Positions 1 to 9,115 of a stretch of 34,065 bases of DNA are shown piece by piece; position 1 is the stretch's first letter; every line of letters begins with the position of its first letter. Position numbers and translations under genes: made by a program. The notes beneath the pieces are model-generated. The model did no database searches. It had not been told where the DNA came from and saw only the letters and a list, made by a program, of their open reading frames with translations. Origin of the DNA: an uncultured Pelagibacteraceae bacterium (GTDB taxonomy: Bacteria > Pseudomonadota > Alphaproteobacteria > Pelagibacterales > Pelagibacteraceae). Location of the stretch: NCBI GenBank assembly GCA_902573385.1, contig CACGJS010000005.1, forward strand, positions 1 to 34,065. Reading direction: 5' to 3'.

Positions 1-671
1 ACATAAAAAAAGGGATTAAAATTGCTTATCGTTAAAAAAAAAGAAGGAAGTCTATCAATAGAATAAAAAACACCTGAAAGAAAACTTAGTGGAGTTATGA
101 TAAAATTAGTTACAGTAGCTGTATGGTCAAATTTTTCAGCCCAAAGACCACTAATAAAACCTAATGCACCAAGAAGAAAGGACCCTAAAAAAGAAAAAAT
201 AAAAATATAAAATATATTATAAATCTGTATTTCTACTATAATAGAAAATACTAAAATTGAAATTATTGCAATAAGCAAACTTCTAGTTATGGCCGCTAAA
301 ATTATTGCCATAGATACCTCTAGAGCAGATAGAGGTGCATAGAGCATATCAACAATGTTTCCTTGAATTTTTCCAATCATTAAGGATGATACTGAATGAC
401 TAAAAGATTGAGTTAATATACTCATTGCAATTAATCCTGGCGCTAAAAAACTAATAAAAGGATATCCAAGAACATCTCCTTTTTCATCTCCTAAAGCAAG
501 TGTTAGAACAGATAAAAATAATAAGCTAGAAACTAAAGGTGATAATAAAGTTTGCTGCCACACAGCTAAAAATCTATTGCATTCTTTAAACCATAAACTT
601 TTGAATCCGATCCAATTTATTAACCCAAAATGACGGACCCCAATCTCATATTTATTTTGTAATTCAACCAT
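1..671 (-). CDS. ABC-2 type transporter permease (3' end truncated by window edge)
   Basis: Reverse-strand reading from ATG at 671 gives MVELQNKYEIGVRHFGLINWIGFKSLWFKECNRFLAVWQQTLLSPLVSSLLFLSVLTLALG...LSGVFYSIDRLPSFFLTISNFNPFFY, open to the edge; multi-TM ABC-2 pattern. Confidence 0.85.
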   Translation of the reverse strand, partial: MVELQNKYEIGVRHFGLINWIGFKSLWFKECNRFLAVWQQTLLSPLVSSLLFLSVLTLALGDEKGDVLGYPFISFLAPGLIAMSILTQSFSHSVSSLMIGKIQGNIVDMLYAPLSALEVSMAIILAAITRSLLIAIISILVFSIIVEIQIYNIFYIFIFSFLGSFLLGALGFISGLWAEKFDHTATVTNFIITPLSFLSGVFYSIDRLPSFFLTISNFNPFFY

Positions 672-3989: not shown

Positions 3990-4601
3990 ATGTGGAAAAA
4001 GATTTTTATTCAAATAATTTTATTTCTGTTAATTATTTTTTTAATTTTTTATACATATAAAATTTATTTTAAAAATGAAAAAAAAGTTGAAATAAATGGA
4101 ATTCAAGATATCCAAAAAGAAAATATAATTAATTCTGATAGTTCTCTTTTAAAAGAAAATGAAGAGGCTCCTAATTTAATTAAAGATCTAAAATATATTT
4201 CAAAGGATATTTTAGGAAATGAATATATAATTAGTTCTGAATACAGTACATTAAATTTAGAAAAAACTAATATTATAAATATGGAAGATGTTAGTGCTAC
4301 GATAACCATGCTAGACAAAGAACCAATATTTGTAAAGTCAAAATTTGCAATATATGATAATGAGAGTTATGAAACTATCTTTTTTGATAATGTTGTGATT
4401 AATTACATTGATAATATAGTTAATAGTGAAAAATTTGAAATATCAATTAAAGATAATTTTGCACAGGTTTCAGAAAAGGTAATATATCAAAATCCGAATA
4501 TAAAACTTGAAGCAGACGTAATAGAAATTGACTTACTAACAAAAAACTCTAAAATTTTCATGATTGATAATAAAAAAAAAATAAAAATAATTAATAAATA
4601 A
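3990..4601 (+). CDS. lptC: LptC-like LPS export periplasmic protein
   Basis: N-terminal TM anchor plus beta-rich repeats; position between kdsD and lptB. Confidence 0.7.
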   Translation: MWKKIFIQIILFLLIIFLIFYTYKIYFKNEKKVEINGIQDIQKENIINSDSSLLKENEEAPNLIKDLKYISKDILGNEYIISSEYSTLNLEKTNIINMEDVSATITMLDKEPIFVKSKFAIYDNESYETIFFDNVVINYIDNIVNSEKFEISIKDNFAQVSEKVIYQNPNIKLEADVIEIDLLTKNSKIFMIDNKKKIKIINK

Positions 4602-4604
4602 AAA

Positions 4605-5381
4605 GTGGCAATAATTAAAAAATTTAGAATTAAGTCCTTTAAAAAAAACAAAGTACTTGTATCTTTAAATAAAATATCTTTATCATTTGGTAAAAGAAGA
4701 ATACTTGAAGATATTAGCTTTAATATTAATGAAGGAGAAATACTTGGAATGCTAGGTCCAAATGGGGTTGGTAAATCAACAATTTTTAATATTATTACGG
4801 GACAAACTAAACCAGACAGCGGATCAATACTTTTCAATAAAGTGAATGCAACAAATTATCCTATCTACTTAAGAACTACAAAATTCAAAATAGGATATGT
4901 GCCACAATATGGTGGTTATTTTCATGACCTTACGTTAATGGAAAATTTAAATGCAATTGCAGAAATTTTAATTAAAGATCCTAGTAGGAGAATTTTTAAA
5001 ATCAATGATTTAATTTCAAAATTTGAGTTAGACTCCGTATTAAATGTAAAAGCAAAATTCTTATCCGGTGGACAAAAAAAAAAATTAGTTATTGCCTTGG
5101 CTCTATTAGGAGACCCTAAAGTTCTTCTTTTAGACGAATGTTTTGCAGCACTGGATGTTTTAACAATAAAAATGTTACAACAATTGATTGTTAACTTACA
5201 AGCTGAAAAAAATATTGGTATATGTATTTGTGACCATCAGGCTAGAGATTTACTGTCTTGTGTTGATATTGCTATAATTTTATCAAATTGTAAAATCATC
5301 GCTCATGGAACTCCATCTGAGTTAATTAATAATGACGAAGCAAAATCACACTATTTTGGTGAGTCATTTAAATTTAATTAA
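4605..5381 (+). CDS. lptB: LPS export ABC transporter ATP-binding protein (GTG start)
   Basis: Walker A GPNGVGKST, signature LSGGQKKK, Walker B VLLLDE, H-loop CDHQ; LptB-type synteny. Confidence 0.88.
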   Translation: MAIIKKFRIKSFKKNKVLVSLNKISLSFGKRRILEDISFNINEGEILGMLGPNGVGKSTIFNIITGQTKPDSGSILFNKVNATNYPIYLRTTKFKIGYVPQYGGYFHDLTLMENLNAIAEILIKDPSRRIFKINDLISKFELDSVLNVKAKFLSGGQKKKLVIALALLGDPKVLLLDECFAALDVLTIKMLQQLIVNLQAEKNIGICICDHQARDLLSCVDIAIILSNCKIIAHGTPSELINNDEAKSHYFGESFKFN

Positions 5382-5394
5382 AAGAACTTTATAA

Positions 5395-6729
5395 ATGAAT
5401 AAAGTTATTTGTATAAATGATAAAATTAAACCTTTTAACGAAACAATAAATATTGATGGAGACAAAAGTCTTTCTATAAGATTTGCAATACTTGCAAGCC
5501 TTGCTGAAGGTAAATCAAGAGCTTTTAATCTTTTAAAATCAGAGGATGTATTAAGTACATTAAATTGTTTAAAAAAATTAGGTATAAAAATAATTATCAA
5601 AAAAAACTATTGTGAAATCTTTGGCAAAGGTCTTAACGGTTATTTTTATAAAAATGATTTAACCCTTAATGCAGGAAATAGCGGAACAGCTGCAAGACTA
5701 CTTTCAACTGCTGCATTAAATTCTCCAAAATTTATACGAATCACAGGAGATAATTCTCTTAAAAAAAGAGATATGAAAAGAATTATTAAACCACTAGAAA
5801 AATTTGGAGCTCAATTTAAAAAAAATAAAGGAACACTACCATTGTTTATCAAGGGATCTGATAGATTAAAACCTATTAAATTCTCAGAAAATCTGGGAAG
5901 TGCTCAAGTAAAATCTGTAGTTTTAATTTCTGCCTTGCTAAGTTCAAATAAAATAACAATATTAAAATGTAAACCATCAAGAACACATACGGAACTCTTA
6001 TTTAAATATCTTAAAATTCCAATTACAATAAAAAAAACAAATAAATTTGATTATATTAAGATAAGAGGAAAAAAAAGTTTTAAAGGTTTTAATTATAAAA
6101 TACCTGGTGATATTTCATCAGCTAGTTTTTTAATAGTTTTAACCCTATTATCTAAAAACTCAAAATTAACAATTAAGAATATAAATGTTAATCCTTCTAG
6201 GACAGGGATAATAACAATATTAAACAAAATGGGAGCTGCTATAAAATTAAAGAATAAAAAGATTTATAAAGGGGAGAATACTGCAGATATTTTTGTAAAA
6301 AGCATAAACAACTTAAAAGCAATTAATCTGCCAAAAAACTTTAATAATAGTACTGCTATAGATGAATTTAATTTAATATTTCTTTGTGCGGCTCTAGCAA
6401 AAGGTGTGAGCACATTTCAAGGATTATTAGAATTACAATCAAAAGAGTCAAAAAGATTAGACTGGGGTTTTAGAATGTTAAAAATGATAGGTATAAAATC
6501 TGAAAAAATTAGCAACCATGGAATTAAGATTTGGGGTAAACCTAATTTGAAATTAAATAAAAATTATATCATAAAAGATTATCTCAAAGATCATCGTATC
6601 GCTATGACTAGCATTGTTTTAGCTCTTACACTTGGTGGAAATTTTAAAATTTATAATCCAGATTCAATAAAAACAAGCTTTCCTTCATTTAAAAAAATAA
6701 TTAAAAACTTAGGCGGAAAAATAAATTGA
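5395..6729 (+). CDS. aroA: 3-phosphoshikimate 1-carboxyvinyltransferase (EPSP synthase)
   Basis: GDKSLSIR, LNAGNSGTAARL, GSAQVKSVVL, KDHRIAM motifs. Confidence 0.93.
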   Translation: MNKVICINDKIKPFNETINIDGDKSLSIRFAILASLAEGKSRAFNLLKSEDVLSTLNCLKKLGIKIIIKKNYCEIFGKGLNGYFYKNDLTLNAGNSGTAARLLSTAALNSPKFIRITGDNSLKKRDMKRIIKPLEKFGAQFKKNKGTLPLFIKGSDRLKPIKFSENLGSAQVKSVVLISALLSSNKITILKCKPSRTHTELLFKYLKIPITIKKTNKFDYIKIRGKKSFKGFNYKIPGDISSASFLIVLTLLSKNSKLTIKNINVNPSRTGIITILNKMGAAIKLKNKKIYKGENTADIFVKSINNLKAINLPKNFNNSTAIDEFNLIFLCAALAKGVSTFQGLLELQSKESKRLDWGFRMLKMIGIKSEKISNHGIKIWGKPNLKLNKNYIIKDYLKDHRIAMTSIVLALTLGGNFKIYNPDSIKTSFPSFKKIIKNLGGKIN

Positions 6730-7382
6730 AAAAAAGAAAAAATATTATTACTGTAGCAATAGATAGTCCGGCTGCTGCTGGAGCAGGCTCTCAGGCAAAA
6801 CTAATTTCAAAACACTATAATCTACTACATCTCGATACAGGGCGCATATATAGACTTATTGGTAAGTTAAAATTAAAAAATGATAAAAATTTTACTTATT
6901 CTAAGATTAGAAAAATAATGAAAAGTTTAAAAATTAATGATTTAAAAAACAAAAACTTATTATCCGATAAAGTTGCTACCTCAGCATCAATAATTGCAAA
7001 AGATAAAGCTATTAGAAAAATTGTTCATGATTTTCAAAAAAAGTGTGCATATAGCCCACCTAAAAAATTTTCTGGAAGTGTTTTAGATGGAAGGGATATT
7101 ACAAGTGTGATAATGAAAAAAGCAATGTTTAAATTCTTTATAACAGCGGATGTAAAAACAAGAGCTAAAAGAAGATTTAAAGAGTTAAAGCCAAAAAATA
7201 AGAGTTTGACCTATAATGAAGTACTTAAAAGTATCAAAAAACGTGATAAAAGCGACTATAATAGAAAAATATCCCCTTTAAAAAAAACTAAAGACAGTAT
7301 CTTGATAAATTCAACTAACCATAATATAAGCAGCTGCTTTTTAAAAATAAAGCATATTATGGATAGGAAACTTAAAGCTTAA
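6726..7382 (+). CDS. cmk: Cytidylate kinase-like protein (TTG start) with aberrant Walker A
   Basis: AIDSPAAAGAGSQAKL, LDTGRIYR, LDGRDITSVIMKKAMFKFFITAD, IKKRDKSDYNRKISPLK; cmk-rpsA synteny. Confidence 0.85.
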   Translation: MKKRKNIITVAIDSPAAAGAGSQAKLISKHYNLLHLDTGRIYRLIGKLKLKNDKNFTYSKIRKIMKSLKINDLKNKNLLSDKVATSASIIAKDKAIRKIVHDFQKKCAYSPPKKFSGSVLDGRDITSVIMKKAMFKFFITADVKTRAKRRFKELKPKNKSLTYNEVLKSIKKRDKSDYNRKISPLKKTKDSILINSTNHNISSCFLKIKHIMDRKLKA

Positions 7383-9115
7383 TGGAAATTTATAAAGAAT
7401 TAAAGACTCCAGCATCAAAAGAATTTGAAAAACTACTTAATAGCCAATTTTCTAAAAATAAAATTACAGAAGGTTCAATCATAGAAGGTAAAATCAATAA
7501 AATTACAGACAAATTTGTATTTCTTTTTATTGAAGGATTAAAAAGTGAGCCAGTCCTTGATATTAATGAATTAAAAAGTATGGGTTTACTTGAGAAAGCA
7601 AAAGTTGGTGAAAAAATATCAGTTTTACTTGAAAGAATTGAAGATAAAAACGGGGAAGTTTTAGTCTCAGCGAGCAAAGCAGCCAAGATAGCCGGATGGG
7701 ATAAATTAGTTGAAGCATATGACAAAGATTTACCTGTAATGGGTAAAATTACTTCAAAATGCAAAGGTGGAGCTATAGTTGAACATATTGATACTGGCTC
7801 ATTAATGTTTTGTCCAGGTTCTCAAATTTCGGATAAACCTTTAAAAGATATATCTCACTTAATGCATGAACCACAAAAGTTTAAATTAATAAAACTAGAT
7901 AAAATTCGAGGTAACGCATGTGTATCACGTAGAGAAATAATTTCTTCTTTTAAAAAAGAAGATAAAAAAATTATAGTCGAAAAATTTAAAGTTGGAGATA
8001 TTATTAAAGGTGCGACAGTCAAAGGTTACAGTAGCTTTGGTTGTTTTTTTGATGTAGATGGAACACTTGATGTTCTAGTTCATGTTCAGGAAATCTCTTA
8101 TTCTAGAGTCAATCACCCTAACGAAATATTTAATATTGGTGAAAAACATGATTTGAAAGTAATTAGTGTAGATCTAGAAAAACTTCAAGTGGGCTGTAGT
8201 ATAAAACAACTATCACCAGATCCCTTTGAACATATTCAAAACTATGAATTAAATAAAAAATATAAAGTTAAAGTAGTTAAATTGATGGACTTTGGTGCAT
8301 TTTGTGAATTAGAACCAGGATTAAGTACATTGCTACATTCAAGTGAATTAAGCTGGACTAAAAAAAATCCATCAGTAAAAAAAATGTTCCAAATTGGTGA
8401 TGAAATAGATTGTATCATAACAGAAATAGACAAAGAGAAAAGAAGAGTGGCCATATCTCACAAATTAACAAAGGAAAATCCTTTTTCAATTTTAGAAAAA
8501 GAATATCCTATAGGTACAGAAATTGAAGGTTTTGTTAGTAATATGAATGAATATGCTCTTTATGTAAAAATTGATAATTTAGAGATAGATGCATTTTTAC
8601 ACTGCAATGATCTTTCATACTCTAATAATGGAGAAGATGAGCTTAAAAAATATAAAAAAGGAGATAAGCTTAAAGTTAAAATTCTTGAAATTAAATCAGA
8701 TCAACAAAAGGTAAGGGTCGGCTTAAAACAAACTCAACCAGATCCTTTTGATTGGTTTAAAAACAAAAAAATTAACTCTACAATTACTGTAAAAGTATCA
8801 TCATCAGATAATAAGGGTTTAACGGTAAAACCTGAAGGATGCGAAATGGAATTTACTATTAAAAAATCACAAATTGCAATAAACGCTGCTGATGCTAGAC
8901 CAACAAGATTCGTTGGTGGAGAGAGAATAGATGCTGCTATTGCAGAATTAGATATGGAAAAAAGGAAAGTTACATTAAGTATAAAATTACTAGAAGAACT
9001 TCAAAATAAAGAAGCGGTATCAAAGTTTAGCTCTACTCTGTCTGGAAAAAATCTACCTTTTTCATCTTTGTCAGACCAGTTAAACAAAAAAGAAAAGAAA
9101 ACTAAAGAAGAATAA
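7382..9115 (+). CDS. rpsA: 30S ribosomal protein S1
   Basis: Multiple S1 repeats (VKGYSSFGCFFDVDG, VVKLMDFGAFCELEPG); ~577 aa; downstream of cmk. Confidence 0.96.
   Translation: MEIYKELKTPASKEFEKLLNSQFSKNKITEGSIIEGKINKITDKFVFLFIEGLKSEPVLDINELKSMGLLEKAKVGEKISVLLERIEDKNGEVLVSASKAAKIAGWDKLVEAYDKDLPVMGKITSKCKGGAIVEHIDTGSLMFCPGSQISDKPLKDISHLMHEPQKFKLIKLDKIRGNACVSRREIISSFKKEDKKIIVEKFKVGDIIKGATVKGYSSFGCFFDVDGTLDVLVHVQEISYSRVNHPNEIFNIGEKHDLKVISVDLEKLQVGCSIKQLSPDPFEHIQNYELNKKYKVKVVKLMDFGAFCELEPGLSTLLHSSELSWTKKNPSVKKMFQIGDEIDCIITEIDKEKRRVAISHKLTKENPFSILEKEYPIGTEIEGFVSNMNEYALYVKIDNLEIDAFLHCNDLSYSNNGEDELKKYKKGDKLKVKILEIKSDQQKVRVGLKQTQPDPFDWFKNKKINSTITVKVSSSDNKGLTVKPEGCEMEFTIKKSQIAINAADARPTRFVGGERIDAAIAELDMEKRKVTLSIKLLEELQNKEAVSKFSSTLSGKNLPFSSLSDQLNKKEKKTKEE

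Follow-up and report, generated by a model that had tools for sequence, protein, structure and literature searches.

The cytidylate kinase homologue (Cmk) encoded in the window, by which we mean the whole stretch of 34,065 nucleotides that was analysed, has lost the Walker A lysine, and comparison with its relatives suggests that, its P-loop having been remodelled, it is probably still active in phosphorylating CMP, serving as the housekeeping CMP/dCMP kinase of its lineage. The tight conservation of this form, together with its exchange for ordinary lysine-bearing versions, suggests that its function is retained. Among SAR11, the most abundant heterotrophs of the ocean, a large clade with a cultured isolate in it appears to depend on a lysine-less CMP kinase.

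The cmk gene and its altered P-loop

The window comes from a fragmented assembly (genome G000, 61% complete) that belongs to the Pelagibacteraceae by its relatives. The genes around cmk and the altered positions of its P-loop are the following:

5395-6729, + strand: aroA (EPSP synthase), lying upstream of cmk in the aroA-cmk-rpsA block
6726-7382, + strand: cmk, cytidylate kinase homologue without Walker A lysine; open frame of 218 aa, above the curated cut-offs of PF02224 and TIGR00017, AF2 model available
7382-9115, + strand: rpsA (ribosomal protein S1), lying downstream of cmk; it served as marker for the host tree
6762-6791, + strand: altered P-loop, residues 13-22, DSPAAAGAGS (canonical DGPxxxGKGT), from alignment to E. 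coli Cmk and entropy
6765-6767, + strand: Ser14 replacing the first P-loop Gly (E. coli Gly12); Ser in 117/117 lysine-less Cmks
6783-6785, + strand: Ala20 (GCA) replacing the catalytic Lys (E. coli Lys18); Ala in 113 and Gly in 4 of 117, Lys in 82/82 lysine-bearing Cmks

The frame begins with TTG, overlaps the aroA stop by 4 nt and shares its last base with the rpsA start; its product contains VAIDSPAAAGAGSQAK around the P-loop. Profile searches gave the protein 141 bits with PF02224 (cut-off 26) and 139.8 with TIGR00017 (cut-off 135.55), the latter being matched by 15/15 members of A1. The AF2 model (pLDDT 90, pTM 0.85) shows the NMP-kinase fold with the CMP-binding insert; its top PDB matches were Cmk without exception, at TM values of about 0.8, and confidence was high also at the altered loop, where the block pLDDT was 92-96. 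The Walker A pattern GxxxxGK(S/T/G) is absent, since the corresponding SPAAAGAGS has Ser in place of Gly and Ala in place of Lys. The other sequence and fold features of the family are present, so that the protein belongs to the Cmks by descent without being a canonical Walker A kinase.

Both substitutions had been proposed in an earlier, sequence-only reading of this DNA, and the alignment to E. coli Cmk confirms them, including the alanine codon. The same reading held that the other Cmk motifs are kept, and indeed LDTGRIYR, LDGRD and RDKSDYNR are all present. Upstream in the window (3990-5381), lptB comes immediately after an LptC-like frame, and a separate lptA frame is missing from the space between the two.

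Distribution, conservation and exchange of the lysine-less form

We searched 297 genomes of the order and obtained Cmk matches in 259. The lysine-less set was made of the sequences read among those sharing roughly 50% identity or more with the window protein; it comprises 117 distinct Cmks from Pelagibacteraceae with the loop DSPxxxG(A/G)G(T/S), all without lysine, and 20 further loci taken from the lower-identity part of the match list read DSP...GAGT in 20/20 cases. The isolate Ca. Pelagibacter ubique HTCC9565 (G024; NZ_LANA01000001.1) carries a Cmk of this kind. Among the lysine-bearing Cmks that were aligned (n=82: 32 from the order, 50 from other Alphaproteobacteria and E. coli), Gly12 accompanies Lys18 in 82/82. 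The K-to-A change, for which a check in close relatives had been recommended, is thus fixed in a large Pelagibacteraceae clade and not peculiar to one genome.

Three loci deserve separate mention. In a Pelagibacteraceae genome (G164; L109, G164:C1:353000-364500), the Cmk at the aroA-rpsA locus (5465-6157) has the loop DATAGSGSTS, with VLNGRD in place of LDGRD, and falls inside the lysine-less clade. In another alphaproteobacterial family, the single Cmk of G357 (L275, G357:C13:1-12000; about 7-579, minus strand, adjoining aroA) has the loop DGPAAVGTGT, where the Walker A lysine is replaced by Thr through the codon ACC, two changes away from AAA/AAG; this one genome represents a possible second, independent loss, in a sample that outside the order covered 51 sequences only (50 lysine-bearing and G357). 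On the contig NYYU01000013.1 (L123), labelled as a Parcubacteria group bacterium, the cmk is lysine-less and of the usual Pelagibacteraceae kind; the contig is probably mislabelled or part of a mixed bin.

To evaluate the conservation of the loop, we calculated its entropy in the 117 lysine-less sequences, which was 0.10 bit against 0.98 for the mean column. The canonical loops of the lysine-bearing relatives, a more diverse set, have an entropy of 0.78, so that the non-canonical loop is the more uniform of the two. Ser14 is encoded by both TCN and AGY codons and Ala20 by all four GCN codons, the residues being nearly invariant, and the median dN/dS is 0.19 (490 pairs with dS below 1; approximate, as a simple counting method was used). 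Near-invariance despite synonymous codons, combined with low dN/dS, indicates strong purifying selection, the new loop being selected for and not drifting. A decaying gene was rejected on these values, in agreement with the previous statement that the gene is not decayed, and the nucleotide-binding loop does not show the relaxed constraint that would mark a pseudokinase.

When the P-loop columns were masked, a quick tree search still placed the lysine-less Pelagibacteraceae Cmks in one clade (SH-aLRT 96), and therefore a single loss of the Walker A lysine, long ago, suffices for the family. The lysine-bearing Cmks of the Pelagibacterales (DGSSASGKTT, DGESASGKST and DGPAASGKGT types) occur in the same genus or family, some of them at the same locus, and presumably do the same job; they differ by an intact GK(T/S/G) and are roughly 31-44% identical to the window protein. 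In the genus, the type with DGSSASGKTT and similar loops occupies the same aroA-rpsA slot, and the DGESASGKST type is found elsewhere, in genomes where aroA directly adjoins rpsA (locus type versus elsewhere type, Fisher 2e-9, kinship ignored). At L252-L265 (G005, G003, G017, G040 and others), aroA and rpsA are cleanly without cmk, separated by a short gap, and a lysine-bearing Cmk lies elsewhere.

On the RpsA tree, likewise from a quick search, the Cmk types are interspersed, and at least 6 changes of the lysine-less state are needed if only the starred branches are counted; as rpsA is linked to the cmk locus and could have undergone recombination of its own, the swaps can be counted only approximately. 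Repeated swapping in genomes that have one gene each speaks for equivalent function. The sister genomes with a lysine-bearing Cmk in the same operon slot also provide ready-made enzyme pairs for testing the role of the lysine. The one clear case of both kinds in one genome, which we count against an active kinase, is G179 (<95% complete), where contig G179:C7 (L102, L101) has a lysine-bearing Cmk at aroA-rpsA and a lysine-less one elsewhere. In G088, a decayed lysine-less cmk with many stops lies between aroA and rpsA (L100, G088:C2:110500-121000, about 5276-5870) and an intact lysine-less copy about 37 kb away (L099); this pair is a relocation caught in progress. In two other genera of the family (L045, L046, L092, L093 in G032, G158, G001, G007), aroA and cmk form one frame of 657-669 codons, resembling the known bifunctional AroA-Cmk fusion.

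Active site, gene complement and probable function

The segments of the window protein that bear on catalysis, besides the P-loop, are listed here:

6837-6854, + strand: TGRIYR, CMP-binding segment with invariant Arg43; position 40 is a candidate helper (alignment)
7089-7097, + strand: Gly122-Arg123-Asp124 (GRD), CMP phosphate/base contacts, invariant (alignment; roles from PMC7259600)
7161-7184, + strand: start of the LID, Arg146 to Glu153, with Arg150 and Glu153 kept (alignment offset to T. thermophilus Arg153 and Glu156)
7242-7265, + strand: LID segment RDKSDYNR, Arg173/Asp177/Arg180 (E. coli Arg181/Asp185/Arg188), invariant (alignment)
7278-7295, + strand: LKKTKD loop, candidate compensating loop; Lys/Arg187 in 117/117 and Thr188 in 117/117 lysine-less Cmks

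The CMP site known from E. coli (S36, R41, S101, R110, R131, D132, D185, R188) is preserved in the lysine-less Cmks: Thr/Ser38, R43, R97, R123, D124, D177 and R180 are found in 117/117 and S88 in 107/117. The LID arginines for phosphoryl transfer (R150, R173, R180) are likewise present in 117/117. In the ADP-CDP complex of T. thermophilus Cmk, the donor phosphate is held by P-loop amides, Lys15 bridges donor and acceptor phosphates, the transferred phosphate is bound by Arg153 and Arg171, and the ATP ribose by Glu156 (PMC7259600). Through the alignment offset (window 119-179 to chain 122-177), Lys15, Arg153, Arg171 and Glu156 correspond to Ala20, Arg150, Arg173 and Glu153, so that the donor and acceptor residues are kept in the window protein and the lysine is not. 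The bridging role of this lysine in T. thermophilus Cmk counts against an active enzyme.

We searched for a residue that could stand in for the lysine. There is no new lysine within the altered loop; positions gained as basic in the lysine-less clade are 40, 49, 186, 187 and 209, of which 40 and 187 are candidates by conservation alone. A basic residue occupies position 40 in 114/117 lysine-less Cmks versus 19% of the lysine-bearing relatives in the order, and also in the G054/G009 type; position 187 is basic also in several lysine-bearing relatives. A single invariant replacement was not found: 40 is not invariant and 186-189 are partly common to lysine-bearing relatives. Positions 187 and 40 are the best candidates and may compensate in part.

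The P-loop lost its lysine once in Pelagibacteraceae and was then fixed as IDSPxxxGAG(T/S), and for this loop it is possible to hypothesize the following mechanism. Phosphate would still be moved from ATP to CMP, with the donor held through the P-loop main-chain amides, the Thr/Ser22 hydroxyl, Arg150 and Glu153, and the transition-state charge normally shared by the lysine would be carried by Arg150/Arg173/Arg123; a basic residue at 187, in the LKKTKD loop, or at 40 may help. The probable cost would be in ATP affinity or rate. A more demanding proposal is that this is a fully competent SAR11 NMP kinase, working without the Walker A lysine by means of the LID arginines and the remodelled loop IDSPxxxGAG(T/S), or drawing on another phosphate donor; judged from the sequences, this could well be so, but we stop short of calling it probable. 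The usual teaching is that nucleotide kinases cannot do without the P-loop lysine; if the proposal is true, the SAR11 Cmk would show that NMP kinases can.

We also evaluated whether other genes could supply CMP kinase activity. With PF02224 above cut-off, at most one Cmk per genome was found in 63 genomes of the order (nearly all >=95% complete), except for G088, with its decayed second copy, and G086, where the gene is in two pieces. Among genomes of the genus at least 95% complete, 28 had only a lysine-less Cmk (some of them classed by identity rather than read), 14 only a lysine-bearing one and 0/42 both; 3 were without Cmk, and in these rpsA was missing as well. In G011, G013, G020, G024 (HTCC9565) and G026, which are single-contig or near-complete, the lysine-less Cmk is the only Cmk. 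G241 (<95% complete) has two lysine-less copies. A true absence of Cmk in G060, G078, G166 and others was rejected as an assembly gap, rpsA being missing too. In five genomes (G153, G157, G160, G172, G235) cmk is missing from between aroA and rpsA and no Cmk was found at another site. With a completeness of 87-92%, and grouping as they do with genomes that have their Cmk away from this locus, they may lack it simply through being incomplete.

As for other kinase families, one ADK-family gene (PF00406) was present in each of twelve genomes searched, and in the six genomes read it is adk with an intact GPPGAGKGT. No separate Cytidylate_kin2 gene (PF13189) was found in five near-complete lysine-less genomes. 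An extra match in G072 was discarded as a Cytidylate_kin2 CMP kinase because its GMMGSGKSS loop and length are, by reading, those of a shikimate kinase; weak PF02224 matches (14-20 bits) were discarded as second Cmks because their frame lengths fit other P-loop proteins, such as adk and, by reading, MiaA, shikimate kinase and Tmk. The search for a second CMP kinase that the sequence-only reading had advised thus revealed none recognisable in near-complete lysine-less genomes. Its hint of a crippled enzyme is opposed by this status of sole detectable CMP kinase, by the strong conservation of the loop and by the mutual replacement of genes with and without the lysine throughout the genus.

Four other explanations have to be weighed against an active CMP kinase. 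The protein might be a CMP-binding pseudoenzyme that has kept the acceptor site, lost phosphotransfer and taken a regulatory or structural role, CMP being handled by another route. Its P-loop lacks the first glycine as well as the Walker A lysine, the K14A mutant of Kti12 is nearly inactive (PMC7363723), and cmk is not essential in Y. pseudotuberculosis, according to the title of PMC3603445; as cmk can be dispensable in other bacteria, an inactive version would be tolerable in principle. We nevertheless regard this as unlikely: the LID arginines and the ATP-ribose Glu, relevant to phosphotransfer and donor binding, are kept, and the two kinds of gene swap one for one. Moreover, an ATP-free pseudoenzyme would be expected to let its loop drift, and the P-loop is among the most conserved parts.

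A changed donor (another NTP, PPi, polyphosphate) or acceptor, reflected in the remodelled loop and the LKKTKD segment, is improbable. The donor-holding P-loop is indeed the most altered segment, and clade-specific changes go beyond the lysine (Ser14, Leu79, Thr/Ile126, Lys187, Thr188, Asn195); however, Thr188 and Lys187 occur in lysine-bearing relatives too, the CMP-contacting residues are nearly all invariant, ATP-ribose Glu153 is kept, and the fact that ordinary Cmks substitute for it implies an unchanged net function of the enzyme. It is very improbable that an unrecognised enzyme phosphorylates CMP and the lysine-less cmk is on its way out, as the decayed copy at the aroA-rpsA locus of G088 and a frameshifted copy in G159 could indicate, given that near-complete lysine-less genomes hold no second Cmk, extra ADK-family kinase or Cytidylate_kin2 gene, that G088 has its intact copy elsewhere, and that dN/dS is low across the clade. 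A sequencing or assembly artefact, for which nothing speaks but the fragmented, incomplete window genome, has practically no chance of being correct and is ruled out by the relatives in more than 100 assemblies, including an isolate genome: AAA/AAG to GCA takes two base changes, which one miscalled base cannot explain, and a state common to 117 distinct sequences and 20 loci is not a read error. An active CMP kinase remains our preferred reading, and it should be noted, as a warning, that a missing motif residue alone is not enough to call a protein inactive.

Comparison with known enzymes

The window protein is like the bacterial Cmks (PF02224, TIGR00017; E. coli, S. aureus 2h92, T. thermophilus 3akc) in sequence family, fold, CMP site, LID arginines and aroA-cmk-rpsA context, and differs from them in the Gly to Ser and Lys to Ala changes of the P-loop. 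In the lysine-less Cmks, moreover, E. coli Arg92 is replaced by Leu and Asp203 by Asn, and position 187, within the LKKTKD loop, is strictly basic.

In the open-licence literature we found no paper on a lysine-less Cmk in Pelagibacter/SAR11 and no report of natural Walker A lysine loss with retained activity in an NMP kinase. The effect of removing the lysine varies among P-loop enzymes, CoaE K14A having lost only 19% of kcat (PMC3019153). In phage Mu gp28 terminase, a deviant Walker A protein as far as it is described where PMC7363723 cites it, the signature lysine is replaced as in the lysine-less Cmk, but a nearby upstream K64 is proposed as substitute, and the SAR11 Cmk loop has no such lysine. 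The closest parallel is Kti12 of Eurotiomycetes, where a natural, clade-wide K-to-L replacement (K14L) keeps activity, the enzyme being active at high ATP (PMC7363723). Kti12 is a fungal tRNA-binding ATPase in which Lys to Leu is tied to a long linker, whereas the SAR11 Cmk is an NMP kinase with Lys to Ala and a change of the first Gly too. Natural loss of the Walker A lysine with activity is therefore already known from Kti12, and our comparison suggests that Cmk adds an NMP kinase variant of it.
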